Part shown: one piece after another, positions 2,152-33,823 of the stretch | Layout of the letters: each line of letters begins with the position of its first letter | Position numbering within the stretch: the first letter of the stretch is position 1 | IMG/VR virus record: IMGVR_UViG_3300042540_000307 | Span: 1-35,576 of that record | Source: a virus | Reading direction: 5' to 3' (one strand) | Length of the DNA stretch: 35,576 nt | Made by a program: the position numbers and the translations under genes | Notes under the pieces: model-generated | What the model was told of the DNA's origin: nothing | The model's input: only the letters and a program-made list of their open reading frames with translations | Databases searched by the model: none

Positions 2152-3552
2152 CTAGAAAAGCTGGCCCGGCGGGCTTGAGACAGCCGCGATCCTCGCCTTG
2201 GCGATCTCGACGTATTCCGCCTCGCGTTCGATGCCGACGAACCGGAAGCCTTCGAGGATCGCCGCCTTGCCCGTAGATCCCGAGCCCGTGAACGGGTCGA
2301 GCACGATGCCGCCGGGCGGCGTCACGAGGCGGCAGAGGTAACGCATGAGGTCGGTGGGCTTCACGGTGGGGTGCTTGTTGTCGCTGCCCCGATCCGCCTT
2401 GCTCGCCTTAGCGCAGTAGAAGAAGCGGGCGGCGGAGCCGGAGTCGCCAAAGCCTGGGTCGCGTGACTCCCGCTCGTCACGCCCCTTTCCGTACACGTCG
2501 CCATTCCGAAACGCACCGAGACTCGCCTGCCCACCTGTGCTTTTGCTCTGCGGAAACAGCCCCACCACCTCGTCGCTGCCGTCGTGGATGAGGTTCGCGG
2601 GCCAGCGGCCGAGGCTTGTGGTTCCCGCACACCGTGAGCCGTTGAGCGAGCCGCCGAGAGCGTTTTTTGGTGGAAGGCTTGCCGTGGATTCAATCAGCGG
2701 GCGAACGCCGCCATGCACCCTGCACCCATCCACGTTGATCGCCCCCGTGCCATGCGTCTGCACGTTCTCAGCGACGGTGCCGACGAGCGGCTTGCGGGCC
2801 ACGATGATCGGCTCCCAGGCGGGCTTGAGGGCAGTGCCCCATCCGGACCACTGGCGAGCGGCGTCGGTGTGTGCATGAGACTTCGTGATTTCCCCTCGCC
2901 ACTGCCCAGCGCCGTTATTCATCGTCACGCCGCCGATACCGGTTTCATATCGCTCGTAGACCTGGCGCTCGGCCATGTTGCGGCTCTCAACGCTGCGGAT
3001 ATCGGCTTCGCGCTCCACCCATTCGGGCACATCGCCCAGCAGATGGCGGCACTGCTCTAAGTGCTCCCGCGTCATGATCGCGGGCTGGCTACCGGCGGTC
3101 GTGTAGTGGCCGCCCATGTTGGTGCCAGTGGCCTCGTCGATCTGACGAGATGTGACGCCAGTGGAGCGGACCCAGGTAGTGAAACGGAGGCGGCGGCGCT
3201 CCTGTTCTTCGCTGGCGTCCATCTTGTCAATCGCCTTGCTCACGTCGTGCGACTTCGGAAAGCCGCTGCCGTAAACCCACATCACGCAGTCCCGAATCTC
3301 CCAGCCCGCGTCCTCGATGGCACAGGCGAGCCGGTGATAGGTGCGAGTCCCGCCGAACGCGAGCAGGTGGGCTCCTGGCTTAGCCACGCGGAGGGCTTCG
3401 GTCCAGAACTCCACGCCCGGCACGCCGTGGTCCCAGCCCTTGCCCATGAACGACAAGCCGTAGGGCGGATCGCTCACGATGGCGTCAACGCTCTCGGCGT
3501 CGAGCGTCGCCATGACCTCGCGGCAGTCGCCGTGGTGGATCGTCCATGACAT
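2152..3552 (-). CDS. Site-specific DNA methyltransferase (N4-cytosine/N6-adenine type)
   Basis: A 466-aa amino-methyltransferase with motif order as in the beta class: catalytic DPPYGLSF (motif IV) about 30 residues in, then the C-terminal SAM-binding motif LDPFTGSGSTGKAAI preceded by HPTVKPTDLMRYL. This order is typical of phage DNA methylases (N6_N4_Mtase). The roughly 250-residue middle, including ETGIGGVTMNNGAGQWRGE, is probably the recognition domain. The enzyme would modify phage DNA; with the C5 enzyme it gives two independent orphan methylations. The ATG at 3552 lies directly behind a perfect 7-bp hairpin (3553-3569) and lacks a normal ribosome-binding site, hinting at translational control. 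Confidence 0.93.
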   Translation of the reverse strand: MSWTIHHGDCREVMATLDAESVDAIVSDPPYGLSFMGKGWDHGVPGVEFWTEALRVAKPGAHLLAFGGTRTYHRLACAIEDAGWEIRDCVMWVYGSGFPKSHDVSKAIDKMDASEEQERRRLRFTTWVRSTGVTSRQIDEATGTNMGGHYTTAGSQPAIMTREHLEQCRHLLGDVPEWVEREADIRSVESRNMAERQVYERYETGIGGVTMNNGAGQWRGEITKSHAHTDAARQWSGWGTALKPAWEPIIVARKPLVGTVAENVQTHGTGAINVDGCRVHGGVRPLIESTASLPPKNALGGSLNGSRCAGTTSLGRWPANLIHDGSDEVVGLFPQSKSTGGQASLGAFRNGDVYGKGRDERESRDPGFGDSGSAARFFYCAKASKADRGSDNKHPTVKPTDLMRYLCRLVTPPGGIVLDPFTGSGSTGKAAILEGFRFVGIEREAEYVEIAKARIAAVSSPPGQLF

Positions 3553-5612: not shown

Positions 5613-5655
5613 GGCGTTCCTTTCGTGAATGGAAAACCGCAGTCTGCGGCGTCGG

Positions 5656-6657
5656 TCAAGCGGACCGCACGGTGCCGTCGCTCATCACGCGGTAGTTGTT
5701 CACGTCGAACGCACCGCGCTCGTGAACCGTGACCATGGCGAAGCCGTGATTCCAGCGGTTGATGACGCTGTACTCGGGCCGCAGGTCGCACAGGCACCCA
5801 GTGCTCCAGCATCCGGTCTCGTGGTGCCACATATCCGACTCGGCGTGGTTGCTCGTCCGGTGCGAATGGCCGACGAGCACCGTTGAGAGCGTTCGCAAGA
5901 ACGCACCTCGAGCGACGTTGACCGGGGCAGACATGCCCTTCGGCAACTCGTGGCCGTGCAGCACCGGCAGCTTGCCCAGCATCACCGGGCGCTGGTCGTC
6001 CACCAGGGCGACGCCGTGCTTGTCGAGGTCGAGCCACGCACACAGCGACATGCGCGGGTCGTCACTAATTTCGGCGGCGTGCTGCCAGAGCCAATGGACC
6101 CAGCGTTCTTCATGATTTCCGAGTTTGTAAACGATCGGGATCTCTGGGAACTGTTGCCGGAGGTAAGCGATGAAGTCTCGCACCGCCCCGAGCTCAGCTT
6201 TGAAGTCCCGTTGCTTCGGGTCCTTCATGTAGCGACTGATGGCGTAGAAGTCGGCGATGTCACCGTTCAGCAAGAGACCGGCAAGGCTCTGCTGTTTCAG
6301 GTGGCCAACGGCCGCAGCCACGGCGAGCTCGGAGTGATACGGGACATGCACGTCGCTCAGGATGCCGACCGGGCCGAGCACCTTCATCACATGCGGCGTC
6401 CACTCCTGCGCCATGCTTTTGGGCATCGCGAAGACCTCGCCAGCCTTGCGCGGCTTCCGGGGCGACGTGGCCTTCGTCTGCTGGCGATGGTGTTTGCCAT
6501 GCACGCCGAACTGCCGCCTGATTCTGGCGCGTGCCTGCTCCATCGTGATGGCGTTATTGCTCTCTTGCACCAGGCGGCGAGCCAGCGTGCGGGCCGGCGC
6601 GTTAGGGTGCGTGCGGCACAGCCGCTTGGCAGCGTCTGCGATCGGGTCAGTCGGCAT
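5656..6657 (-). CDS. Calcineurin-like metallophosphoesterase with N-terminal helical DNA-binding-like region
   Basis: A 333-aa phosphoesterase. Metal-binding motifs appear in family order: LSDVHVPYH, NGDIADF, LGNHEERW, VLHGHE and VGHSHR, all needed for a dinuclear metal centre. The first 55 residues (AKRLCRTHPNAPARTLARRL, then MEQARARIRRQFGVHG) look like a helix-turn-helix segment often fused to phage metallophosphoesterases. The substrate is unknown; nucleic acid or nucleotide processing is plausible. AAGGAGGAACGCG precedes the ATG at 6657, inside the last codons of the SprT-like gene, so the two are coupled. Confidence 0.88.
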   Translation of the reverse strand: MPTDPIADAAKRLCRTHPNAPARTLARRLVQESNNAITMEQARARIRRQFGVHGKHHRQQTKATSPRKPRKAGEVFAMPKSMAQEWTPHVMKVLGPVGILSDVHVPYHSELAVAAAVGHLKQQSLAGLLLNGDIADFYAISRYMKDPKQRDFKAELGAVRDFIAYLRQQFPEIPIVYKLGNHEERWVHWLWQHAAEISDDPRMSLCAWLDLDKHGVALVDDQRPVMLGKLPVLHGHELPKGMSAPVNVARGAFLRTLSTVLVGHSHRTSNHAESDMWHHETGCWSTGCLCDLRPEYSVINRWNHGFAMVTVHERGAFDVNNYRVMSDGTVRSA

Positions 6658-15567: not shown

Positions 15568-15760
15568 GTCGTCCTCGTTTGCGTGGCGTGGCGTCGGCCG
15601 TCTCGGCCTCGTGCTCTATGGCCGCCGTCTCGATCTCGGTCTGTCGGTCCTCGACGGCCAGGCCGCGCTTGATCCAGTCGCGGGCCATGCCGTCGGGCAC
15701 GTCTGGCAACACCTGCCCGCGTCGGTAGACGCGGAACGACTGCACCATTCTTATTTTCAT
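15524..15760 (-). CDS. Small hypothetical protein (78 aa)
   Basis: A 78-aa protein starting MKIRMVQSFRVYRRGQVLPD; DGMARDWIKRGLAVED suggests a short helical adaptor motif common in small phage head genes. The C-terminal half is charged and low in complexity (ETADATPRKRGRRAVPKPDS). The start at 15760 overlaps the previous stop (ATGA, 15757-15760), whereas the longer form from 15859 would run into the preceding gene. Family uncertain, but its placement next to the connector is typical of such short proteins. Confidence 0.65.
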   Translation of the reverse strand: MKIRMVQSFRVYRRGQVLPDVPDGMARDWIKRGLAVEDRQTEIETAAIEHEAETADATPRKRGRRAVPKPDSPDSPSR

Positions 15761-16344
15761 GATTGCGGCACACTCCATGCAGAGTCGGGCTTTTTGCCCG
15801 TGTTGCAGTATTCGGTCGCCCACTGAAAGACGGGCTTTGCCAAGTCCTTGCCGGGCCACGTCACCATGAACTCGCCGTGGCCTAGCACAACGCGAGGCGA
15901 GACGTAAATGCGATTGCCGCCGCCTTCTCGGAAGTTCTTCCAGGCGTAGATGTCGGCATCCAATCTGCCGTCATTCCACGAACCATCGGGGCCGGGTTTG
16001 CCGCAGAACCACGGTTTCGGCGTCCGCCTGAGAGCGGCTGTCGAGATGATGGTGCAGCCGAAGTGGGCCGAGTCCACTTCCTGCACGGGCTCGGCAAACC
16101 ACGACATCGGCAGCGTCGTCTTCTCGTGGGCCTCCGGGTTGCCGAGCGTGCCCTTGAGCGTCAGCATCGGGCGGCCGTCCTCACGCTTGGTCTGGAGCCC
16201 GGTGATGGCGTCGCACTGAAAGGCGAGCGCTAGAGAAAACAGATGCTCTAGGTCTTCCTTGGAAAAGAAGGTGTCGTAATCAATCGTGAGCAGGTACTCG
16301 CACTTGTCGATGAACTGCTCAAAGACCCGCTCCATGCACTGGTC
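15757..16344 (-). CDS. Glycosyltransferase-like protein, 3' segment (residues 52-246 of the joined protein)
   Basis: The C-terminal 195 residues of a GT-A-like protein. The segment begins DQCMERVFEQFI and carries LLTIDYDTFFSKEDLEHLF, whose DYD fits the DxD nucleotide-sugar and metal site, then LDADIYAWKNFREGGG and VVLGHGEF. It continues exactly from the 51-codon segment 16396-16548 after removal of the 51-nt hairpin element (16345-16395): the junction reads TGAFW|DQCMERV, a common theme in this family. Alone, this part would have to start at ATG 16335, lacking the N-terminal beta strand and nucleotide-binding loop. No ribosome-binding site precedes 16335. Substrate unknown. Confidence 0.75.
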   Translation of the reverse strand, partial: DQCMERVFEQFIDKCEYLLTIDYDTFFSKEDLEHLFSLALAFQCDAITGLQTKREDGRPMLTLKGTLGNPEAHEKTTLPMSWFAEPVQEVDSAHFGCTIISTAALRRTPKPWFCGKPGPDGSWNDGRLDADIYAWKNFREGGGNRIYVSPRVVLGHGEFMVTWPGKDLAKPVFQWATEYCNTGKKPDSAWSVPQS

Positions 16345-16395
16345 GCAGTTGGTTCTAGGCTTGAGCCCCCCGGTTATTGGCCGAGGGGCTCAAGC
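16345..16395 (-). mobile_element. 51-nt hairpin intervening element (copy 1), in the glycosyltransferase-like gene
   Basis: On the minus strand: 15-nt arm GCTTGAGCCCCTCGG, 7-nt loop CCAATAA, 15-nt arm CCGGGGGGCTCAAGC, 14-nt tail CTAGAACCAACTGC. The arms pair over all 15 positions with a single G-U wobble at position 12. It interrupts TTC TGG^GAC CAG. The element is 51 nt, in frame, but its second codon is TGA. Exact removal joins TGAFW to DQCMERV. It matches copy 2 (21801-21850) in architecture, in the first four bases, in GCCCCT and in the TCTGG^GAC context. Confidence 0.85.
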
Positions 16396-16548
16396 CCAGA
16401 ATGCGCCGGTCACCTTTGTGGGGCGAATCCCGAGAGGCATGAGGGCCTGAGCCCACGTGAAGAACGCATCGTTAAAACCCAAGCGAGGCATACTAAAAAC
16501 TGCCTCTACTCGGATGTCTACGGACGTGTCGCCAACCTTGACGAGCAT
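16390..16548 (-). CDS. Glycosyltransferase-like protein, 5' segment ending in the hairpin element
   Basis: ATG at 16548 with AGGA 7 nt upstream. Encodes 51 residues starting MLVKVGDTSVDIRVEAVF, then SMPRLGFNDAFFTWAQALMP and PTKVTGAFW, one more Ala, then a TGA inside the hairpin element. VFSMPRLGFND and TGAFW are the usual N-terminal motifs of this GT-A-like family, so the fragment is not a separate gene. Joined to 15757-16344 it gives a 246-aa protein. The gene begins directly behind the terminator (16559-16601). Confidence 0.75.
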   Translation of the reverse strand: MLVKVGDTSVDIRVEAVFSMPRLGFNDAFFTWAQALMPLGIRPTKVTGAFWA

Positions 16549-16558
16549 TGGTAGTTCC

Positions 16559-16601
16559 TAAAAAGGAAACGGCAGGCAGAGCGATGTGCTCTACCTGCCG
16601 T
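16559..16601 (-). terminator. Rho-independent terminator/attenuator after the head-gene cluster
   Basis: A 14-bp stem on the minus strand: ACGGCAGGTAGAGC, loop ACATC, GCTCTGCCTGCCGT, followed by TTCCTTTTTA. The one imperfect position is a G-U pair on the minus-strand transcript but an A-C mismatch on the other, so the orientation is clear. It follows the head protein ending at 16626 and lies directly before the ribosome-binding site of the next gene, so downstream connector and tail genes depend on partial readthrough. Confidence 0.85.
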
Positions 16602-16625
16602 CCAATGTCGTCAGGCTGTCAAGCG

Positions 16626-19271: not shown

Positions 19272-20784
19272 CTGTCGAATCCTCCTGGGCAGTCGTGCTG
19301 TCTTCGGCATCGTCTTCTGGCGTGCCGTCCATCGGCTCGCCTGGCGAGTCTTGCGGCATCGGCTGTGCATCCGCCGCCACCGCACCGGACACCGTGCCGG
19401 AAATGATTTGATCGACAGACTGCGGGCTCATTGTCGGGAACGCCGACAGGATCACAGCCTTTGCTCCAGACGGCGTCAACAAGCCAGCCGCCAGGTTCTT
19501 GACGATCTCAATGAGCGACGTGACTTGCGCCCCATTGAGTGCCTGTTGTTGCAAGTTCTCCCCAGTGTTGGATGCAGCCATCTTCTCGTCTTCTGTCTGC
19601 ACGACTTTGTCTAGCGTGGTCATGTTGAGCTGCACAAACTGGGCGTCGCCACGCTCTCCAAGCGGATTAAAGTTTTCCAGCTCTCGAATCTCGTTAATGC
19701 TCATCCAGCCGTTCTGGAGAGCGGAAACAAAGTAGGCCGACCGGCTGGCGTGATCGCCACGCAGTAGGCCGCTCACGTTGTGCTCGGCGAAGTACGTCTC
19801 GTCCTCGCCTTCCGCGAGCAGGTCGCGGGAGATGGCGGCCTCCCACCGCTTGAGATGCGGCAGAAGGCAGTACTGAACCATCTCAACGCCCTGCACTTCG
19901 ATATTGCTGTAGGTGCTTCGCGTCAGGTCTTGGATCATGTGCGGCGGCACGCGAAACGCCCGGCAGATTTCGATGACCTGATACTGCCGCGTTTCAAGGA
20001 ACTGGGCCGCCTCGTTGCTCTGCGACAGCTCGTGAGCCTTCACGCCCGCCGGCAACACCGCCGTGCGGTGAGCCCGATCCGGGCCACGGTGCATCCGCTC
20101 CCACGACTCGCGAAGCCGCTCGGCCGCCTCAACTGGCACCGGGTTCTCTGACTCAAGCACGATGCCAGGCCGGGCACCGTTGCCGAAGTAGGTCGCACCG
20201 TGGGCCTCCAGCGCTTGGGCCAGCCCGATGGCGTTGGCGAAGAGCCGATAGCTCGGGATCGGATGAATGCCGTCGTCCGTGGTGAACCGCAGGGCGAAGA
20301 TTTGCTCTTGGCGGTAGACCGTCTGCCGGCCATCCGGCTCACGGTAGATGTACCGCAGACGCCCGTTTTCCAGCCGCTCGACTTCCATGCGGCTCGGATG
20401 CAGCGGCCACAACTCCGACACAGGCCCGCGAGCACCGGCACGAATCTCGGCGTAGCTTGCGCCGTAATGCAGGTAGAGCCCCGTCATCCAATCGCGGAAT
20501 TCCTGCGCCGTCTGCCACGGATTCGGCTGCATGTGCAAGATGCGGTAAAGCGGATGCTCTGGCACCTTGCGCTTGCCGCCGTTGGGCTGCCGCTCATAGA
20601 GATGCAGGGGCAGGCTTGAGACGCTGTCAGAGATGACTCTGATGCACGCCGTGTAGGCCGAGCAGGCCATCGACGTGTCTGCAGTCACCCGCACGCCTGA
20701 CGCAGTGCGACCGCCACCGACGCCGGCCCAATCAATGCCACGCAGCTCGTGCATGCGGAAGTCGGCGGTGGCCGTGTCGCTCAT
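19261..20784 (-). CDS. Portal protein, HK97 family
   Basis: A 507-aa HK97-type portal: SVSSLPLHLYERQPNGGKRK, HPLYRILHMQPNPWQTAQEF, LLPHLKRWEAAISRDLL and the stem/wing pattern EICRAFRVPPHMIQDLTRST. The start ATG at 20784 overlaps the stop of the terminase 3' segment (ATGA, 20781-20784). The last 60 residues are acidic and Gln/Ser-rich. Twelve copies would form the DNA channel and terminase docking ring. Confidence 0.95.
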   Translation of the reverse strand: MSDTATADFRMHELRGIDWAGVGGGRTASGVRVTADTSMACSAYTACIRVISDSVSSLPLHLYERQPNGGKRKVPEHPLYRILHMQPNPWQTAQEFRDWMTGLYLHYGASYAEIRAGARGPVSELWPLHPSRMEVERLENGRLRYIYREPDGRQTVYRQEQIFALRFTTDDGIHPIPSYRLFANAIGLAQALEAHGATYFGNGARPGIVLESENPVPVEAAERLRESWERMHRGPDRAHRTAVLPAGVKAHELSQSNEAAQFLETRQYQVIEICRAFRVPPHMIQDLTRSTYSNIEVQGVEMVQYCLLPHLKRWEAAISRDLLAEGEDETYFAEHNVSGLLRGDHASRSAYFVSALQNGWMSINEIRELENFNPLGERGDAQFVQLNMTTLDKVVQTEDEKMAASNTGENLQQQALNGAQVTSLIEIVKNLAAGLLTPSGAKAVILSAFPTMSPQSVDQIISGTVSGAVAADAQPMPQDSPGEPMDGTPEDDAEDSTTAQEDSTDGN

Positions 20785-21800
20785 AGGGTGATGATGTCCC
20801 AGTTCTGTTCCGGCGGCTTCGCAGTTGCCACGGCGTGCAGGCCGAGAGCCATCACGAGCGAGACGATGCCGTCGATGCGTTCCGTGCTCTTCGCCTTGCT
20901 CGGTTTGATGTTGCCCTGGTGGTCGCTCTGTACTGCCACGTTCGCAGCCATCCAAGACAGAACCGGATGATTCGCATGCCGGATTCGCTCGGACAGCACA
21001 TAATTTTCAAGGGCGCGGCTAGGGCTCGACATTGAGCCGTAGCCCTGTCCAAATCCTGTCACATTCACGCCCTCGCCTTGCAGTTGCGTGGCGAGCTGCG
21101 TCGCGTTCCAGCGGTCGATACCCACCTGCCGAATGTTGAACTTCTGCGAGAGTTCCACGATGTCGCGGCGAATCACGTCGTAGTCGGTGACGTTGCCATC
21201 CGTGGACCGGATGAACCCGTCACGAATCCAGCCGACGTAGTCCACCTTGTCTCGCAGCGTCCGCTCGGCGGCGTTTGCCTGCGGCACCCAGAAGTACGGC
21301 AGCACGTCGAAGGTGCCGTCTTCCGCTTGGCTCACCATCACGAAGGCCGAGAGGTCGAAGGTGCTTGCCAAGTCCAGCCCTGCGTACCACTCACGCTGCT
21401 CGAGGTCGCCGGCCAGCGGCTTGCCGCACTTGGCCCAGTTATCTGGAGACAACCAGCGAACGTCCTGGGTGGTCCAGACATTGAGCCTGTATCGCAAAAA
21501 GCTATTGAGCTTAGACGGTGACTGCTCAGCCTCTCTGGCATCGGCGGCAAATGACTCCACCGTGATCGTCTCGCCCAGCGAAGGGTTGGCTTTGTGCCAC
21601 GTCGCCTCGCTCTTCCAATCGTCCTCGGGCGAGGCGGCGTAGATGCACCCAAAGAAGGCAGGGTCCACCGCTGGATCAGCGATGCACCGCTCGGCGTAAG
21701 CGTGTTGTTCCCAACAGATTGACTTGCGGTCGTAGCCGGCCGTGGTGATCGACAAGAGGAGTGGCGATCGTCTGGCTGCCCCACCGTACCTTAGTGCGTC
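20781..21800 (-). CDS. terL: Terminase large subunit, 3' segment (nuclease domain)
   Basis: 339 residues that continue the ATPase segment after exact removal of the 50-nt element 21801-21850: LW|DALRYGGAARRSPLLLSITTAG. The nuclease part has YAGLDLASTFDLSAFV and VGIDRWNATQLATQL, consistent with RNase H-like metal sites of P27-type phage terminases. It lies in a different frame from the 5' segment because the element is 50 nt. An isolated start (for example at 21755) would lack the ALRYGGAARR motif just after the Walker B region, so it is not a gene of its own. Coupled to portal by ATGA. Confidence 0.88.
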   Translation of the reverse strand, partial: DALRYGGAARRSPLLLSITTAGYDRKSICWEQHAYAERCIADPAVDPAFFGCIYAASPEDDWKSEATWHKANPSLGETITVESFAADAREAEQSPSKLNSFLRYRLNVWTTQDVRWLSPDNWAKCGKPLAGDLEQREWYAGLDLASTFDLSAFVMVSQAEDGTFDVLPYFWVPQANAAERTLRDKVDYVGWIRDGFIRSTDGNVTDYDVIRRDIVELSQKFNIRQVGIDRWNATQLATQLQGEGVNVTGFGQGYGSMSSPSRALENYVLSERIRHANHPVLSWMAANVAVQSDHQGNIKPSKAKSTERIDGIVSLVMALGLHAVATAKPPEQNWDIITL

Positions 21801-21850
21801 GCGTGTTTGTCCGGGCCTCCGCCCCCGGCCTCTCAGCCAGGGGCGAAAGC
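21801..21850 (-). mobile_element. 50-nt hairpin intervening element (copy 2), in the large terminase gene
   Basis: Minus strand: 15-nt arm GCTTTCGCCCCTGGC, 6-nt loop TGAGAG, 15-nt arm GCCGGGGGCGGAGGC, 14-nt tail CCGGACAAACACGC. All 15 pairs form; three (positions 3, 5, 12) are G-U, so the pairing is perfect only in the minus-strand RNA. It sits in CTC TGG^GAC GCA, just past Walker B (LLFDELHAQ). The frame meets TGA inside the element and is shifted after it. The terminase is restored only if all 50 nt are removed or skipped. Confidence 0.88.
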
Positions 21851-22435
21851 CCAGAGGCGGCGGTCCCTTTGTGCGTGGAGTTCATCGAAGAGCAGGGCGT
21901 GGATGTTGAGTCCTTCGGCCCGGAACGCATCAGCCGACAGCACCCGATAGAACGAGTTGCTTGCCTTGTGGACGATGGTCTTCCGCGAGTCGATTACCTC
22001 GAGATGCTTCGACAACGCAGGCGAGGCCCGCACCATCGAGGCCGCTTCGCGGTAGATGATGCCAGCTTGCTCGCGGTCGCAGGCAGCACCGTAGACCTCG
22101 GCACCGGGCTCCGAGTCAAACGCCGTCATGTAGAGCGCGATCCCGGCGAGCGTCGTGCTCTTTCCCTGCTTTTTTGGCAACTCGATGTAACCGACGCGAT
22201 GCCTGCGTAGTCCGTCAGGGTTCAGCCGGCCAAACAACTCACGCAGGACGTGGTGCTGCCACGGCAGGAGCGTGAACGGTTTGCCCGCGTTCTGCCCCTT
22301 GCTGTGGCGCAGGATCTTCTCAAAGAAGTGAACGACGCGCTCGTATTTGGCCTGCCCATCTTTGCAAAGGTCAGGCACCGTGGAGCTTGAAGAAGTCTTC
22401 GACTTCGTCGCTCGGCTTTTCTTCCTTGCCGCCAA
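21833..22435 (-). CDS. terL: Terminase large subunit, 5' segment (ATPase domain), ending in the hairpin element
   Basis: Codons 1-195 of TerL, then five element-encoded codons and a TGA. ELPKKQGKSTTLAGIAL is the Walker A region and IHALLFDELHAQ the Walker B with its acidic residues; PWQHHVLRELFG and CDREQAGIIYREAASMV are ATPase-domain segments. Start at TTG 22435 overlaps the small terminase; GTG 22378 is an alternative. The 5' part alone would lack the nuclease and part of the ATPase coupling motif, so it cannot package DNA. Joined with 20781-21800 it makes about 534 aa, the usual TerL length. Confidence 0.88.
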   Translation of the reverse strand: MAARKKSRATKSKTSSSSTVPDLCKDGQAKYERVVHFFEKILRHSKGQNAGKPFTLLPWQHHVLRELFGRLNPDGLRRHRVGYIELPKKQGKSTTLAGIALYMTAFDSEPGAEVYGAACDREQAGIIYREAASMVRASPALSKHLEVIDSRKTIVHKASNSFYRVLSADAFRAEGLNIHALLFDELHAQRDRRLWAFAPG

Positions 22436-23798: not shown

Positions 23799-24833
23799 TT
23801 ACGCCGACGCGGCCCGTGTCGTGCAGTTCTCCCGCACGAGCGCCTCGCGTCTGGCGAGCTCCAGATCGGCGTCTACCATCATCGCCACGAGATCGGAGAA
23901 CGACGTGCGTGGCTCCCAGCCCAAGATGCGCTTCGCGTTCCCGGCATAGCCAATCAGCACGTCCACCTCGGTCGGCCGTTCGTACCGCTGGTCATGCTCG
24001 ACGAAGTCCCGGTAGTCGAGGTCGAGCCGCCCGAATGCCAGTTCGCAAATCTCCCGCACCGTGTGCGTCTCGCCCGTTGCCACGACGAGGTCTGGCGGGC
24101 TGCCGATGGGATGCTGGAGCATCAGCCACATGGCCTCGACATAGTCGCCCGCGAAGCCCCAATCGCGGCTGGCGTCAAGGTTGCCGAGGTAGAGCTTCGA
24201 CTGCAGCCCGTGCTTGATGCGGCCTGCGGCCCGCGTGATCTTGCGGGTCACGAAGGTCTCGCCGCGCCGCGGGCTTTCGTGATTGAACAGGATGCCGCAC
24301 CGTGCGAACAGCCCATAGGCTTCGCGGTAGTTCACCGTCGTCCAGTGTGCGAAAGCCTTGGCGCACGCATACGGTGAGCGTGGACGAAACGGCGACTCCT
24401 CGCGCAACATCGGCCTGTCGCCAGGGAACAACGCCTGCGGCTCGATGCCGCCATACATCTCGCTGCTCGACGCCTGGTAGAACCGCGCCTGCGGTGCGTG
24501 GTCGCGAATCGCCTCCAGCATCCGCAGAGCGCCGATCCCGGTGGCGTCGGCCGTGTAGACCGGCTGGTCGAACGACACGCGGACGTGGCTTTGTGCCGCG
24601 AGGTTGTAGACCTCGTGCGGCTCGACCTGCCGCACGATGCGAGCCATCGCACCGCCGTCGCACACGTCGCCGTGGTGCAGGTGGACCGCATCGAAGATGT
24701 GGTCCACGCGACCGGTGTTGAACGTCGAAGCCCGGCGAATGATGCCGTGGACTTCGTAGCCTTTGGCGAGCAGGAACTCGGCGAGGTATGAGCCGTCCTG
24801 CCCGGTGATGCCGGTGATGAGGGCGCGGGTCAT
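23799..24833 (-). CDS. gmd: GDP-mannose 4,6-dehydratase
   Basis: A 344-aa short-chain dehydrogenase that turns GDP-mannose into GDP-4-keto-6-deoxy-mannose, precursor of fucose, rhamnose and perosamine sugars. The NAD(P) site [16 protein letters not shown] is at the N-terminus, [15 protein letters not shown] follows, SSSEMYGG carries the catalytic Ser/Glu, and [17 protein letters not shown] the catalytic Yxxx[16 protein letters not shown] and [19 protein letters not shown] are family signatures. Start at ATG 24833. Together with the glycosyltransferase block it suggests modification of surface glycans. Confidence 0.95.
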
Positions 24834-24840
24834 GCGGAAA

Positions 24841-25191
24841 TTATTCCACAACACGCAATTCAACGGTTTCCATGCTGTGTTCCCAACTCCAAGACTGTCC
24901 GATAGGCGATGTGACGTTGGACGCTTGCAGGTCGCCTCCAATGCCATGACGCCAATACATGACCCCAGGAATTGACGGCAACGCATCGGCCATTGCGGCG
25001 ATCATTTCTTGCGTGGCCGCCGTGTACATGGCGAAGTGCGTTGGCGAGCCCGACCCGGTTCGCGATAGCGGGACCGTGAAAGCGTTGCCGTCGTAGTTTG
25101 GTCCGCTTGGGTTGATTTGGCGTGCGGCGGCGTCGGCAGCAGACAACGATGCGGCCGGAACGATGATGGCGAGCCGGTAGTCGAAACTCAC
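24841..25191 (-). CDS. Hypothetical protein next to the lectin gene (116 aa)
   Basis: The GTG at 25191 overlaps the LamG stop as GTGA with GGGG 7 nt upstream, so I prefer it to the ATG at 25203. The product ([20 protein letters not shown], then [20 protein letters not shown]) is soluble. A tail-fibre-associated or chaperone role is possible from its coupling to the lectin-domain gene. No family recognised. Confidence 0.6.
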
Positions 25192-29023: not shown

Positions 29024-29425
29024 TCACAGTTCGTCCGCGTCTTCGTCCAGCCCGGCAAGTTCGGCCGTGATCTCAATTCTCGCCAGCGTGAACCCGGTCG
29101 GCTTGTTCGCCTGCCGTTCCGCTCGCGTCACCTCGTCCCACGTCACCTGCACGCACGTCACGCGCTGGGCCACACGCGGGGCGAGGTCGAGGCTGTTCTC
29201 GCTCGCGGCCAACTCGGCCGCGTCGGGGTCCAGCATCCGTTCGTCGCGGCTGGGCTTGTAGCGGAGCCGGCGGTCGTTGCGAGGCGGGAATCCCCAGACC
29301 TCGCGGAGGCGAATCAGTTGGTGGCTCGTGACCGTCCAGTAGGTCGCTATCGCCTGGATCGGCAGATAGGAGTCCCACTGCAGCCGCAGCGTCACGCGGT
29401 CAATGATCGAGGTGTTGCCGGCCAT
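29024..29425 (-). CDS. Hypothetical protein (133 aa), possible HTH
   Basis: The stretch IQAIATYWTVTSHQLIRLRE, with VWGFPPRNDRRLRYKP following, resembles a helix-turn-helix with a recognition helix; an acidic C-terminal end (LAGLDEDADEL) follows. It overlaps the glycosyltransferase end by 26 nt. Possibly a DNA-binding regulator; unproven. Confidence 0.6.
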   Translation of the reverse strand: MAGNTSIIDRVTLRLQWDSYLPIQAIATYWTVTSHQLIRLREVWGFPPRNDRRLRYKPSRDERMLDPDAAELAASENSLDLAPRVAQRVTCVQVTWDEVTRAERQANKPTGFTLARIEITAELAGLDEDADEL

Positions 29426-30284
29426 GTTGCGGGACCCAGAAGCTCACGACCCTGGACGATGGATTGAAACCGAACCGCCCTCTCGTCTCGGGATGCTCGG
29501 CGATCGACCTATGCAGGGTGCAATGCTCGCACGTTTCGCCCGTGTAGACGCCACGCAGATAGGCGTCAGCACGGTACAGAGCGAGCTGCCCGAAGGCCGA
29601 GTTCACCTGCACCGGCGGTGCGCCGACCACCGGCCGCATGAGGTGGAACCAATCGAGCGGCGTGCGATGCCGCCAGCCGAACCACCGGAAAGCGAAGCCG
29701 TCGTAGTGGGCGGGAATAACCGTGCCGTCTGCGGTTCGCATCTCGCACCACGAATAGGAGCCAAGCCCCCACCAATCGCTCCGCTCCATGTGGGCCACGC
29801 TGGTGAGCAGACCGTCAATGCTCCAGCCGCCCCAGCTATCGGAGTCCACGACCGCGACCAAGTCCACCGGCTCGCCGTGTCGCACCCAGGTCTGGCAGGC
29901 AGCGCGGTACTCCGCGAGCGCGACCGTTCGCTCTTGGGAGATCGTGTAGTTGAGATGCGGGCGATCGTAGGTATTGAGACTGACACACCGCTGCCGTTGG
30001 TCAGACCACTCTTTCAGCACCTCCTTCGTGTCATCGACGCTGTCGTTCTCTGCGGCGAACGCGGTCCACGACTTGAAGCACGCGCCAGTTCGCTCGATGA
30101 GATCAAGCGTCTGCCGCAGCCACGGCTGGGAGTTTCTGCAGATCATCACGATGGCGATAGACAGGCCAGCCGCCACCTCGCGCCCATACTTCACCGCTTC
30201 CGCGTAGTCCTCCGCGAACTCGGGATCGGGCGGCAGCAGCACGTCGGGCCGGTGGGCCTCAATCTCGTCAAGCGTGATCTGCAC
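29400..30284 (-). CDS. Glycosyltransferase-like protein (294 aa)
   Basis: A GT-A type enzyme: AAGLSIAIVMICRNSQPWLR with RNSQPW is the usual N-terminal motif of family-2-like transferases, LVAVVDSDSWGGWSIDG holds the DxD (DSD), and SDWWGLGSYSWCEMRTADG and YRADAYLRGVYTGETCEHCT follow. GTG start at 30284 with GGAGGGACGATC before it. Substrate unknown. It is followed by coupled hypothetical genes and preceded by another GT, so likely part of a glycan cassette. Confidence 0.75.
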   Translation of the reverse strand: MQITLDEIEAHRPDVLLPPDPEFAEDYAEAVKYGREVAAGLSIAIVMICRNSQPWLRQTLDLIERTGACFKSWTAFAAENDSVDDTKEVLKEWSDQRQRCVSLNTYDRPHLNYTISQERTVALAEYRAACQTWVRHGEPVDLVAVVDSDSWGGWSIDGLLTSVAHMERSDWWGLGSYSWCEMRTADGTVIPAHYDGFAFRWFGWRHRTPLDWFHLMRPVVGAPPVQVNSAFGQLALYRADAYLRGVYTGETCEHCTLHRSIAEHPETRGRFGFNPSSRVVSFWVPQHGRQHLDH

Positions 30285-30984
30285 GATCGTCCCTCCGCAC
30301 TTCCCGCCACGCCGTCGGCTGTTCCCCGTTGGTGATGTCATCCGCCGTGACCGCCACGCGGTGATTCGCCGTGTGCCACTCGGGACTCGGCACATGCGTG
30401 CCCTTCTCAGCGCCGATGTTCTGGATTCGGCTCACCGTGGGGAATGCTTCGTATCGCCCGGCTCGCAGCGCGTGGTTCACGATCACGTCCCACGAGGTTG
30501 CGTCGTCACGCACCCATCCCATGTGCAGGCCCAGCCATCGGTCCCGCCAGGTGCCCCAGCCCCACGGCGTGAACCACCGACGCAGGCCGCACTCTCCGAG
30601 GCATCCGTTCGACACCCGCTGGTATCCGCTCACGTTCATGACGGCCGGATCGTCGCGGTAGTGGTCTCGCGCCCAGGCGAACCAGCGCAAGGCATCGACG
30701 CACGGCACCGTGTCGTCTTCGAGGTGGAGGTGGAACTCGCTGCCCATCGTCTCGAAGCCGTAGCCGAACGACGAGCGGATCGCCCGGTTGCATCCCGCCC
30801 GCTCCGAGTACGTCACCGAATCGAATTCGTAGCGGTTCGCAATCGCCGCGGACTCGGCGGCATCGTCCGAGGGATCGATCAACACCAGCACGTCGCAGTC
30901 GCGGATGCCGTCGCACGCCCGCAGAGCCGCGAGCGTCTGCGTCAGGTAGGCCGGGCGGTTGTAGGCCGACACCGTGATGTTCAC
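30268..30984 (-). CDS. Glycosyltransferase-like protein (238 aa)
   Basis: Begins MNITVSAYNRPAYLTQTLAA, the GT-A start; FHLHLEDDTVPCVDALRWFA gives an EDD site of the kind seen in GT13-like families, and WGTWRDRWLGLH is similar. GTG start overlaps the radical SAM stop (GTGA, 30981-30984). With the adjacent GTs and radical SAM enzyme it forms a surface-sugar block. Acceptor unknown. Confidence 0.75.
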   Translation of the reverse strand: MNITVSAYNRPAYLTQTLAALRACDGIRDCDVLVLIDPSDDAAESAAIANRYEFDSVTYSERAGCNRAIRSSFGYGFETMGSEFHLHLEDDTVPCVDALRWFAWARDHYRDDPAVMNVSGYQRVSNGCLGECGLRRWFTPWGWGTWRDRWLGLHMGWVRDDATSWDVIVNHALRAGRYEAFPTVSRIQNIGAEKGTHVPSPEWHTANHRVAVTADDITNGEQPTAWREVRRDDRADHA

Positions 30985-33191
30985 GAGTTGCGGAGTTCCT
31001 CGGCCAACTGGGCGAACCGCTTATTGCCGTCGGTGTGCATCTCGGAATCCGCGTCGAGGCTTGCCCCCTCGTAGGCATCGAGGTGCCCTGCGGTGCGGAG
31101 CGTGTGTAGCGGCGTGCCTTCAATCTCTGCCGTGCCCGAAAGCTGATGCGAGTCAAGCGGCAGCGACTCAATGAACCGCACCGTGTCCTGCATCTGCTCG
31201 CGGGTCTCGCCCGGCAGGCCCACGGTGAACGTGCCGTGGACCGTCATGCCGATTCGCTTGAGTTCATGCACGACCTCGCGGGCATACTCCAGATCGAGAT
31301 GCTTGTTGACGATCTTGTCTACGACGTACTGATTGCCGCTCTCGAATCCGAGCTTCACGCCGAAGCAGCCCGACTCCTTCATGAGCGACCACGTTTCCAT
31401 CTTGCTCGTGTCGGCGCGGCACATGGCCGACCACGGCAGGCCGATGCGGCGCATGACTTCGCACATCTTCACGACGTGCGAGTTGCCGAGGTTGAACGTG
31501 TCGTCGTCAAAGTAGATGGAGCGAAACCCGTACTCTCGCACGAGCGACGCGAGGTACGGCTCCATGTACTCGGGCGAGTAGTGGCGGACCTTGCGGACTT
31601 TGGTGCCGTCAGGATCGTTGCCTGTCATCGCGGCGGGCCACACGCAGAAGCAGCAGTTCTTTACGAGCACGTTGTTCGCGTAGAAGACGCCCGTGTCGGG
31701 AACCTCCATGCAGTACGTGTCGTGCAGGCCCGGCAGTTCCTCGACCGCCACGACCTTGTGATTGAACGTGCCGTCGGGAGCGTGGGCATCGTTGCCCAGC
31801 GTGTGGCCGCGAGCTCGCCGCGTGGCGATGCCACGCAACGCCCGTTCGCTCTTTTCCTCAAAGGTCTTTGACGCCTCGCGTCGCAGTGCGGCGAGCCGGT
31901 ACCGCTCGCGAGACTCGGGGCTGCGAACCTTGCCGCGATTGCCGGCGGCGATCTTGGCTACCCACTCAGGCGACAGCCCGCCGGCTGCCGGGTTGTAGAG
32001 CCGCATCCGATCGGCGATCTCGGGGTGGCTGGCGAAGTGCTCAACGGTGTCCCGCATGACCGCGAGGTTGTCGGGGTGCCAGTTGTGTTTGTCGTGGTCG
32101 ATGTGATGCACGACCTCGCCCGGCTCCAGGCGGCGGCCGATCTTCCACTCGGCCACCAGCCGGTGCGTCTTCTCCCGCCCGCGCCGTGCCCACACGGTAT
32201 CGAGGTACTCGCCTGACTTGTACTGACGCAACGCCCGGACGCGGGTGCCAGCCGTCAGGTCTTTCGCCTCGACCAACCACTCCCGCTCGGCGACATATTG
32301 GTTGCCCCACTTGAAGGCAACGAACCGATGGTCGGGAGTGCAGTCGATGTGCGACCCGTCATCGAAGTGAACCCGTACGAGCTTCTGGTTCTCGCCGGTC
32401 TTGGCGATGACTCGGGGCGTCGAGATCTTCGCCCGTTTCGCCTCGCGGTCATACGTGAAGACGCCGACATCGGTGCGGCCCACAAGATCGCGGATCGGCA
32501 CCATGCCTTCGACCGTGTTCACGAGCGTGTCGCCCGCGAGGCACTTGTACGGACATCCCCGACTCGACCACACATGAGCGTGCGGGTACTGCTGCCCGAT
32601 CGGGTTGTAGTCGAAGTAGCGGTGTGCGATCTCCGCGTCCATGTACGGGGGCGGCGCGGCGTTCATCTCGGCGAGCGTGAGCAAATCGAAGTCGATCACG
32701 CCGCTTGCGCCCTCGATCACCTTGACCGCGTTCTTCTCGTACTCGCCACGCAGGCAGGCGTGAACGGGAAGCGACGATAGAATCTCGTCGCTCTTGGTGG
32801 TGGTGATCGGGCCGGCGATCACGATCTTCGTCTGCGGCAAAACCTTGTGGATCATCTGCACGACTTGTGCATCGTGATCCCAACTCGGCGTCGCCGTCTC
32901 GATCACGACAATGTCGGGCCGCTCGGCCCCGAGGTAGTCGGCGTAGCTCTGGTATGTCTCACGCAGTGCGATCGAATCGCGAAACCGCACTTCGGCTTTT
33001 GTGTTCGCCGCCGCGTAGGTCGCCGCGTAGCCCAGGAAGAACGGGTACGGCAGGTAGCCGCCGAACTTGAACTCGCCCGGCGGTGCGTTCGCTGGCATCG
33101 TGAACGGCCACCGCGAGCCGGCCCGCACGCCGCAGCGAAGGTATTCCTCGGACGAGTCCCACCACGGCGGGTTGGAGAAGAGAACTTTCAT
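30981..33191 (-). CDS. B12-binding radical SAM protein containing an intein
   Basis: 736 aa including a 296-aa intein (residues about 217-512). Extein 440 aa. The N-terminal B12-binding-type domain has MKVLFSNPPWWDSSEEYLRC, then IVVIETATPSWDHDAQVVQM. The radical SAM cluster motif is CPYKCCFC (CxxxCxxC), cut between CPYK and CCFC by the intein. RSIYFDDDTFNLGN and MCRADTSKME follow as usual in the family; TFTVGLPGETREQMQDTVRF completes the barrel. AGGAGACATCGC precedes ATG 33191. Substrate unknown; the neighbourhood of GTs and a methyltransferase suggests radical modification of a sugar or lipid carrier. Confidence 0.9.
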   Translation of the reverse strand: MKVLFSNPPWWDSSEEYLRCGVRAGSRWPFTMPANAPPGEFKFGGYLPYPFFLGYAATYAAANTKAEVRFRDSIALRETYQSYADYLGAERPDIVVIETATPSWDHDAQVVQMIHKVLPQTKIVIAGPITTTKSDEILSSLPVHACLRGEYEKNAVKVIEGASGVIDFDLLTLAEMNAAPPPYMDAEIAHRYFDYNPIGQQYPHAHVWSSRGCPYKCLAGDTLVNTVEGMVPIRDLVGRTDVGVFTYDREAKRAKISTPRVIAKTGENQKLVRVHFDDGSHIDCTPDHRFVAFKWGNQYVAEREWLVEAKDLTAGTRVRALRQYKSGEYLDTVWARRGREKTHRLVAEWKIGRRLEPGEVVHHIDHDKHNWHPDNLAVMRDTVEHFASHPEIADRMRLYNPAAGGLSPEWVAKIAAGNRGKVRSPESRERYRLAALRREASKTFEEKSERALRGIATRRARGHTLGNDAHAPDGTFNHKVVAVEELPGLHDTYCMEVPDTGVFYANNVLVKNCCFCVWPAAMTGNDPDGTKVRKVRHYSPEYMEPYLASLVREYGFRSIYFDDDTFNLGNSHVVKMCEVMRRIGLPWSAMCRADTSKMETWSLMKESGCFGVKLGFESGNQYVVDKIVNKHLDLEYAREVVHELKRIGMTVHGTFTVGLPGETREQMQDTVRFIESLPLDSHQLSGTAEIEGTPLHTLRTAGHLDAYEGASLDADSEMHTDGNKRFAQLAEELRNS
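31656..32543 (-). mobile_element. Intein with HNH homing endonuclease
   Basis: Starts at Cys (CLAGDTLVNTVEGMVPIRDL, block A), block B is HFDDGSHIDCTPDHRFVAF with the conserved TxxH, HNH homing nuclease motif VVHHIDHDKHNWHPDNLAVM, block F DTYCMEVPDTGVFYANN and block G VLVKN followed by Cys of the C-extein. 296 aa. The penultimate residue is Lys rather than the usual His. It interrupts the FeS-cluster motif of a radical SAM enzyme, so splicing is needed for activity. Confidence 0.92.
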
Positions 33192-33823
33192 GCGATGTCT
33201 CCTGCCTCTCGCAGCCACACCGGCTCGTCGCGAGAGCCGTCCGCACGCACCGTTGCGAACACCGCCCTCGTGCTCTCGGCCGAGACGCCACGCATCGCCC
33301 ACCCAAGGAACGTCTCGGGGTGGAAGATGCCGCCTGCGTTGATGTATTCATCCAGCCGGTCGAGCCGCGTGAAGTAGCGTCGCATTGCCGTCAACTCGCC
33401 AAACGCGAAGCGATCGTTGCATCCGAACCAGTTGCAGAAGGTCGGCACTCGCCAGCCCGTGCCCTCAAACGGCTCGGGCGGCACGCTGAATGCGAGATCG
33501 GAACGGCACCGCACGACGCAATCGGCTTCGATGCCGCTCGCCTCAAAGACCTGCCAGGCGCGACGCAGCCCCCAGAGTTGCTTGAGTACTCGCTGTACCC
33601 CGTGGCATCCACGCCCGATCTGAGTCGAATACTCCCGCCGCTCCGGCATCTCGAACTGCGGCTCAACCACCGTGACCGAAGGGCGAAACAGGAACGCCTT
33701 GTCGGCGTCTTCGTCAGCGACGGCGTGAACGATGAACGTCGCATCGGGGTAGATGTCGCGGATGCCGGCGGCGCACTTGTCGGCCGTCCGCATCTGACCG
33801 CTGACGAGGACGGCAGTCTTCAT
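33188..33823 (-). CDS. Probable glycosyltransferase-like protein (211 aa)
   Basis: Starts MKTAVLVSGQMRTADKCAAG, typical of small GT-like proteins that begin with the pattern AVLxSGQxRT. DCVVRCRSDLAFSVPPEP carries an RxRxD motif, a pattern seen in WavE-like and related carbohydrate enzymes. Length is short (211). Both ends overlap neighbours by ATGA. Function inferred from family pattern only. Confidence 0.6.
   Translation of the reverse strand: MKTAVLVSGQMRTADKCAAGIRDIYPDATFIVHAVADEDADKAFLFRPSVTVVEPQFEMPERREYSTQIGRGCHGVQRVLKQLWGLRRAWQVFEASGIEADCVVRCRSDLAFSVPPEPFEGTGWRVPTFCNWFGCNDRFAFGELTAMRRYFTRLDRLDEYINAGGIFHPETFLGWAMRGVSAESTRAVFATVRADGSRDEPVWLREAGDIA

Follow-up and report, generated by a model that had tools for sequence, protein, structure and literature searches.

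Hairpin elements inserted in a phage terminase gene and in a second phage gene are probably mobile translational bypass elements

How can a phage gene that is broken by a hairpin and an in-frame stop codon still give one protein? This question is raised by a locus in the window analysed here (the whole stretch of 35,576 nt of a viral record). On the minus strand, TTC TGG (16401-16396) is followed by a 51-nt element (16395-16345), after which the same gene, referred to here as the GT gene, goes on with GAC CAG from 16344. Translation across the site reads ...VTGAFW A*APRPITGGLKPRTNC DQCMERV..., with TGA as the second codon of the element, and the upstream piece comprises 51 codons (16548-16396, minus strand). 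A preliminary description had proposed that a hairpin element is inserted between FW and DQ, and that its exact removal gives back the homologous protein; both proposals are borne out by relatives whose empty sites read FWDQ. In the following, the last codon before an element is called the take-off codon, and the triplet directly before the resume codon the landing triplet. The features of the GT gene are:

15757 to 16548, minus strand: interrupted GT gene, function unassigned; ATG at 16548, stop at 15757 (translation, 80 viral relatives and phrog_1574)
16396 to 16398, minus strand: inferred take-off codon TGG (Trp), in frame, inside the hairpin base and corresponding to the invariant W of uninterrupted relatives
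16353 to 16401, minus strand: hairpin TTCTGGGCTTGAGCCCCTCGG-CCAATAA-CCGGGGGGCTCAAGCCTAGAA, 21 bp (folding)
16345 to 16395, minus strand: inserted element of 51 nt, missing from uninterrupted relatives; other alleles at the same site have 50 nt
16345 to 16347, minus strand: presumed landing triplet TGC, directly before the resume codon; TGG in allele L096
16342 to 16344, minus strand: resume codon GAC (Asp) (sequence and relatives)

Folding of the GT element gave a z score of -5.6, with none of 200 shuffles equally stable, and of -7.3 in a second run; the long hairpin includes the TGG codon. Of 80 relatives of the GT gene that were collected, 42 were inspected at the insertion site, and all of them read FWDQ, FWSQ or FWGQ there except L187 and L222, which carry an element. 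The glycosyltransferase-like identity first suggested for this gene could not be confirmed: its protein has no match in Pfam and no relative in PDB, phrog_1574 is a family of unknown function, and the structure model is unusable (pLDDT 32). Just 5' of the gene, a terminator-like hairpin with a T run (16567-16603, minus strand) has counterparts in relatives.

The GT element is not the only one in the window. A search of the whole window for the hairpin pattern returned exactly two matches against 0.00 expected, namely the GT site and 21853-21814 in the terminase gene (TerL). The TerL element, 50 nt long, sits between CTC TGG and GAC GCA, and its omission restores RLW-DALRYGGAARRSPLLLSITTAGYD; the Pfam TerL ATPase domain lies on one side and the nuclease domain on the other. 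Most of 80 TerL relatives are contiguous at precisely this site (site A). The window's nearest TerL, that of L051 (98% amino-acid identity), lacks the element. The nearest cellular TerL is an uninterrupted gene of a Phycisphaerales MAG, with 45% identity and thus too distant to name a host, and the TerLs of cultured phages are below 60% identity. The features of the terminase gene are:

20781 to 22435, minus strand: interrupted TerL, ATPase part and nuclease part (Pfam TerL_ATPase, TerL_nuclease; contiguous in L051)
21851 to 21853, minus strand: site A, inferred take-off codon TGG (sequence and relatives)
21811 to 21854, minus strand: site A hairpin, 20 bp, CTGGGCTTTCGCCCCTGGCT...GGCCGGGGGCGGAGGCCCGG (folding)
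21801 to 21850, minus strand: site A element of 50 nt, RLW^DALRYGG (uninterrupted relatives)
21801 to 21803, minus strand: site A presumed landing triplet CGC, followed by the resume codon GAC; AGA, CGC, CGA or TGA in relatives

Related contigs, from freshwater viruses of bacteria, extend the two cases to a family of 37 distinct elements (41 variants when the first resume codons are included), gathered by the hairpin pattern scan, a second pattern and a tblastn-break scan. They occupy six sites, five in TerL and one in the GT gene:

TerL site A: RLW^DAL, a Trp site with 20 variants
TerL site B: FDEL^HAQ, a Leu site
TerL site C: AEGL^NIHA, a Leu site
TerL site D: IEL^PKKQGKS, a Leu site
TerL site D': PKKN^GKS, an Asn site
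GT-gene site: GAFW^DQ, a Trp site with three alleles

Elements consist of a single hairpin of 17-20 bp with a loop of 4-7 nt, plus a linker of 4-8 nt, and are invariably inserted at codon boundaries and in the sense direction; a phage genome has one or two of them. The gap lengths are 46, 48, 49, 50, 51 and 52 nt, falling in all three frames, with 50 and 51 nt the commonest and 50 nt the mode. A 0-frame stop occurs within nine codons past the take-off codon in 30 of the 41 variants, compared with 12% of shuffles. The 51-nt length and the in-frame TGA, which the preliminary description had pointed out, are thus indeed present in the window, but both are incidental, as sister elements measure 46-52 nt in all three frames. 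In protein-based sampling, elements were found in 21/80, 8/80 and 15/80 TerL loci (44/240 in total) and in 4/80 GT loci. A tblastn-break scan of 17 phage records found elements, among the matches listed, in TerL and the GT gene only; when viral contigs were scanned with a relaxed hairpin pattern, the kept loci had strong hairpins, among the matches listed, at the known sites and in one simple repeat. Two members, at site D (L360/L361, with an unmatched CCG landing triplet) and at site B (L418), have degenerate, mismatched hairpins and are possibly decaying.

On these grounds, we regard it as quite probable that both elements of the window are mobile translational bypass elements that work like the one in T4 gene 60. 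A ribosome would arrive at the take-off codon (TGG in the window; CTG or AAT elsewhere), which is part of the base of a very stable mRNA hairpin of 17-20 bp or directly adjoins it. The peptidyl-tRNA would then release the take-off codon, the hairpin would be neither unwound nor read, and translation would restart just past the short linker 3' of the hairpin. The 46-52 nt gap would be omitted from the protein, and the split genes would yield an intact TerL and an intact second protein. We infer from sequence comparison the skipping during translation, the re-pairing at the landing codon, the efficiency of bypassing, and a tolerance of the Trp sites for partial or no re-pairing. The predicted hairpin energies are -30 to -48 kcal/mol, a stability that may count against efficient bypassing.

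The junctions themselves carry much of the argument. Of the 18 variants at Leu and Asn sites, 17 have a take-off codon and a landing triplet that specify one and the same amino acid, while the adjoining linker varies. The pairs are CTG/CTG or CTG/CTA (L138) at sites B and C, CTG/CTG or CTG/CTT (L378) at site D, and AAT/AAC at site D' (L321, L283, L269); the single Leu variant with an unmatched landing is L360. At the Trp sites the sole match is TGG/TGG in the GT allele L096. The 20 site-A variants have AGA, CGC, CGA or TGA as landing triplet, two of the three GT alleles (window included) have TGC, and only the middle G is constant. Where the landing triplet is not TGG, full re-pairing of tRNA-Trp is impossible; at these sites, either partial pairing would suffice, or the distance set by the hairpin would fix the landing, or site A would add one Arg. 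AGA, CGC and CGA all encode Arg, while the TGA allele speaks against the added residue. This allele (G014; L024/L092/L256) is otherwise a normal site-A element.

The position of the hairpin relative to the junction is not constant. The take-off codon occupies stem nucleotides 1-3 at sites B, C and D and 2-4 at site A and the GT site, and lies just before the stem at D'; the junction is offset from the stem base by 0-3 nt at B, C and D and by 4-5 nt at site A and the window's GT site, and always falls on a codon boundary. Since nothing but the ribosome knows the reading frame, this pattern would favour translational bypassing over the splicing or joining of RNA. If the hairpin were instead a minute intron, which a nuclease excises from the mRNA before the ends are ligated, one would likewise expect exact removal, selection on the hairpin at the RNA level, free choice of frame and mobility. 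We nevertheless consider such splicing unlikely, as the codon boundary is kept despite the varying offset and is invisible to an RNA enzyme, and one fixed cut rule would introduce stop codons or incorrect residues at site A. Splicing also accounts less simply for the CTG/CTA, CTG/CTT and AAT/AAC pairs. The elements are single hairpins of 46-52 nt, the window has no Rfam match, and we know of no splicing RNA of about this size. A self-splicing group I or group II intron was rejected for the same size, single hairpin and lack of a window Rfam match, and for the lack of a catalytic RNA core.

The coding sequence on either side of the elements bears on whether the interrupted genes still function. 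Among 31 distinct terminases interrupted at site A, 30 are free of stops over 181 codons on the upstream side and 330 on the downstream side, the exception (L010) having a site-C element upstream. Between the window and another carrier (L006), pS is 0.46 and pN 0.048 in the downstream exon, and 0.50 and 0.045 in the upstream exon; judged by these values, the exons on both sides of the element are under purifying selection. A rival idea is that the insert disables or regulates its gene, with ribosomes halting in the hairpin and the truncated or split proteins being put to use. The early in-frame stops of many elements would agree with this idea, which we hold to be quite improbable, given the selection on both exons, the finding that the record has no second copy of either the GT gene or TerL, five distinct split points within one ATPase domain and the presence of elements in 44/240 TerL loci from protein searches; a start site for the second half was not noticed at the junction.

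The stem provides evidence on the molecule that is under selection. Over 20 distinct sequences, 98.9% of cells are paired, against at most 61% in slid-register controls, and both sides have changed in 11 of 19 pairs. All elements taken together have 611 Watson-Crick pairs, 110 G-U pairs, no A-C pair and eight others. G-U pairs form solely in the RNA of the coding strand, and a DNA palindrome would show A-C equally often; the count of 110 to 0 argues that the hairpin is under selection as the mRNA of one strand. The same count makes it very improbable that the elements are DNA-level palindromes (a transposon end, a cruciform or a replication structure) or are excised from DNA before expression, and so does their constant sense orientation at codon boundaries, even though such readings would suit the mobile behaviour and the short co-transferred flanks described below. 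Excision from DNA would also suit contig L524, which has a joined site with carrier-like flanks. In that contig, site A is uninterrupted at 5654-5699 between carrier-like codons, and the contig ends beside site B. Its joined junction was also considered as a sign of spliced RNA and rejected, as it is one contig and an allele without the element is simpler.

Readthrough of the stop codon, by which the element would appear in the protein as an additional loop, would be open to the window's 51-nt element and to the 51-nt alleles of site A, which are in frame with one TGA. Most alleles, however, are 50, 52, 49 or 46 nt long and shift the frame at the same sites, and gap lengths in all three frames exclude readthrough as a general mechanism; the 17-residue loop is absent from every GT homolog inspected (n = 42), and we give this reading a negligible probability, in line with the preliminary description. 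A sequencing or assembly artefact, conceivable in that assembly errors can occur at hairpins, is practically excluded: the same elements recur, with compensatory changes, in dozens of contigs that come from many metagenomes. The earlier argument that the terminase case is not a sequencing error thus holds, as it belongs to the same conserved element family.

As regards mobility, the site labels require 36 changes on a tree of 178 TerLs (FastTree), and presence must have changed at least 17 times to account for the starred branches, counts that recombination can blur. Within about 200 nt, the window and L051 (without the element) are 90-100% identical in nucleotides, but only 76% and 70% in the 30 nt flanking the element on each side, where the window and the carrier L056 are 100% and 96% identical. 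The element thus appears to have moved together with short flanks. Carriers at site C share an identical 36-nt block of the upstream exon, even where their TerLs have about 58% identity to that of the window. This block (about 4477-4512 in L089) contains an 8-bp stem-loop, CTGAGTGC-TGAC-GCATTCAG, absent from the non-carriers that were checked. A stem-loop 5' of the take-off codon, as in T4 gene 60, is consistent at site C alone.

A reason for persistence may be found in other inserts of the same gene. In-frame inteins of about 1 kb interrupt TerL at Walker A GK^S (L379 729-1744, L413 842-1845, L410 1689-2692), two codons from site D' and about six from site D. We hypothesize that a hairpin inserted near GK^S would break the homing target, an idea that does not cover sites A, B, C and GT. 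The bypass of T4 gene 60 is likewise thought to be tied to protection from a homing endonuclease (PMC5009743, PMC11194080), and the same shield idea has been put forward for it (PMC5009743). No free-standing homing endonuclease was found among the window proteins searched, the sole HNH domain being inside an intein. That intein splits a radical-SAM/B12-binding protein (30981-33302, minus strand; Pfam Intein_splicing 7.5e-10, HNH_3 4.7e-8). The window also encodes a phage integrase (3969-4949, plus strand) and DNA methylases (582-1478 and 2152-3552, minus strand), which suggest a temperate phage, as well as sugar-modification genes (23799-24986 and 29400-30984, minus strand; GDP-mannose dehydratase, and glycosyltransferase family 2 by weak matches).

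What is known of programmed bypassing comes from a single well-studied phage gene and from the mitochondria of yeasts. The elements described here resemble T4 gene 60 in that a phage gene is concerned, a gap of 50 nt (the modal length here) between the pieces of one protein is skipped, or here would be skipped, and is thereby harmless, the take-off codon is in the base of a hairpin (except at D', where the stem starts just after the codon), and codons match (GGA/GGA in T4; here CTG/CTG and others, mainly at the Leu and Asn sites). They differ in forming a family that moves between phages and occupies six sites of two genes; in the single 17-20 bp hairpin that nearly fills the gap; and in the Trp sites, where the matched landing of T4 is replaced by TGG to TGC and TGG to CGC (in the window). 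T4 also has a nascent-peptide signal, whereas no upstream peptide is common across the present sites. On account of this signal, and because the stop codon adjoins the take-off codon in T4 and lies here at codon 2, 6, 7 or later or is absent, the elements may be said to resemble the gene 60 bypass and are not filed as a strict member.

The byps of the yeast Magnusiomyces capitatus are multiple short inserts at codon boundaries that are skipped in translation, with mismatched codons tolerated. The pattern of insertion is alike here, at six sites; the byps differ in being mitochondrial, numbering 81 per genome and seemingly not depending on mRNA context, whereas the hairpin is conserved here. 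Unmatched codons are known from mitochondrial bypass cases as well (PMC5009743). A terminase gene with bypassing has been suggested before, tied to a UUA codon and not considered an insert (PMC5009743); it is alike in the gene concerned, a comparison made by description only. Inteins of phage terminases also sit at conserved TerL motifs, and differ from the hairpins, which are about 50 nt, non-coding and without protein self-splicing. A mobile family of bypass elements in phages was not reported in the open-access full text searched.

With 37 natural variants spread over six sites, and uninterrupted relatives to serve as controls, the rules of take-off and landing (codon match, hairpin register and gap length) become directly testable. 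For annotation, it would follow that gene callers report an essential and working gene such as TerL to be broken in 10-26% of the sampled TerL loci. It is possible, and we put this forward tentatively, that the elements represent a new, horizontally spreading class of bypassing, in which the ribosome would hop across the base of a folded 20-bp hairpin, geometry rather than codon match would set the landing at Trp sites, and the elements would persist by breaking the targets of homing endonucleases in essential genes.
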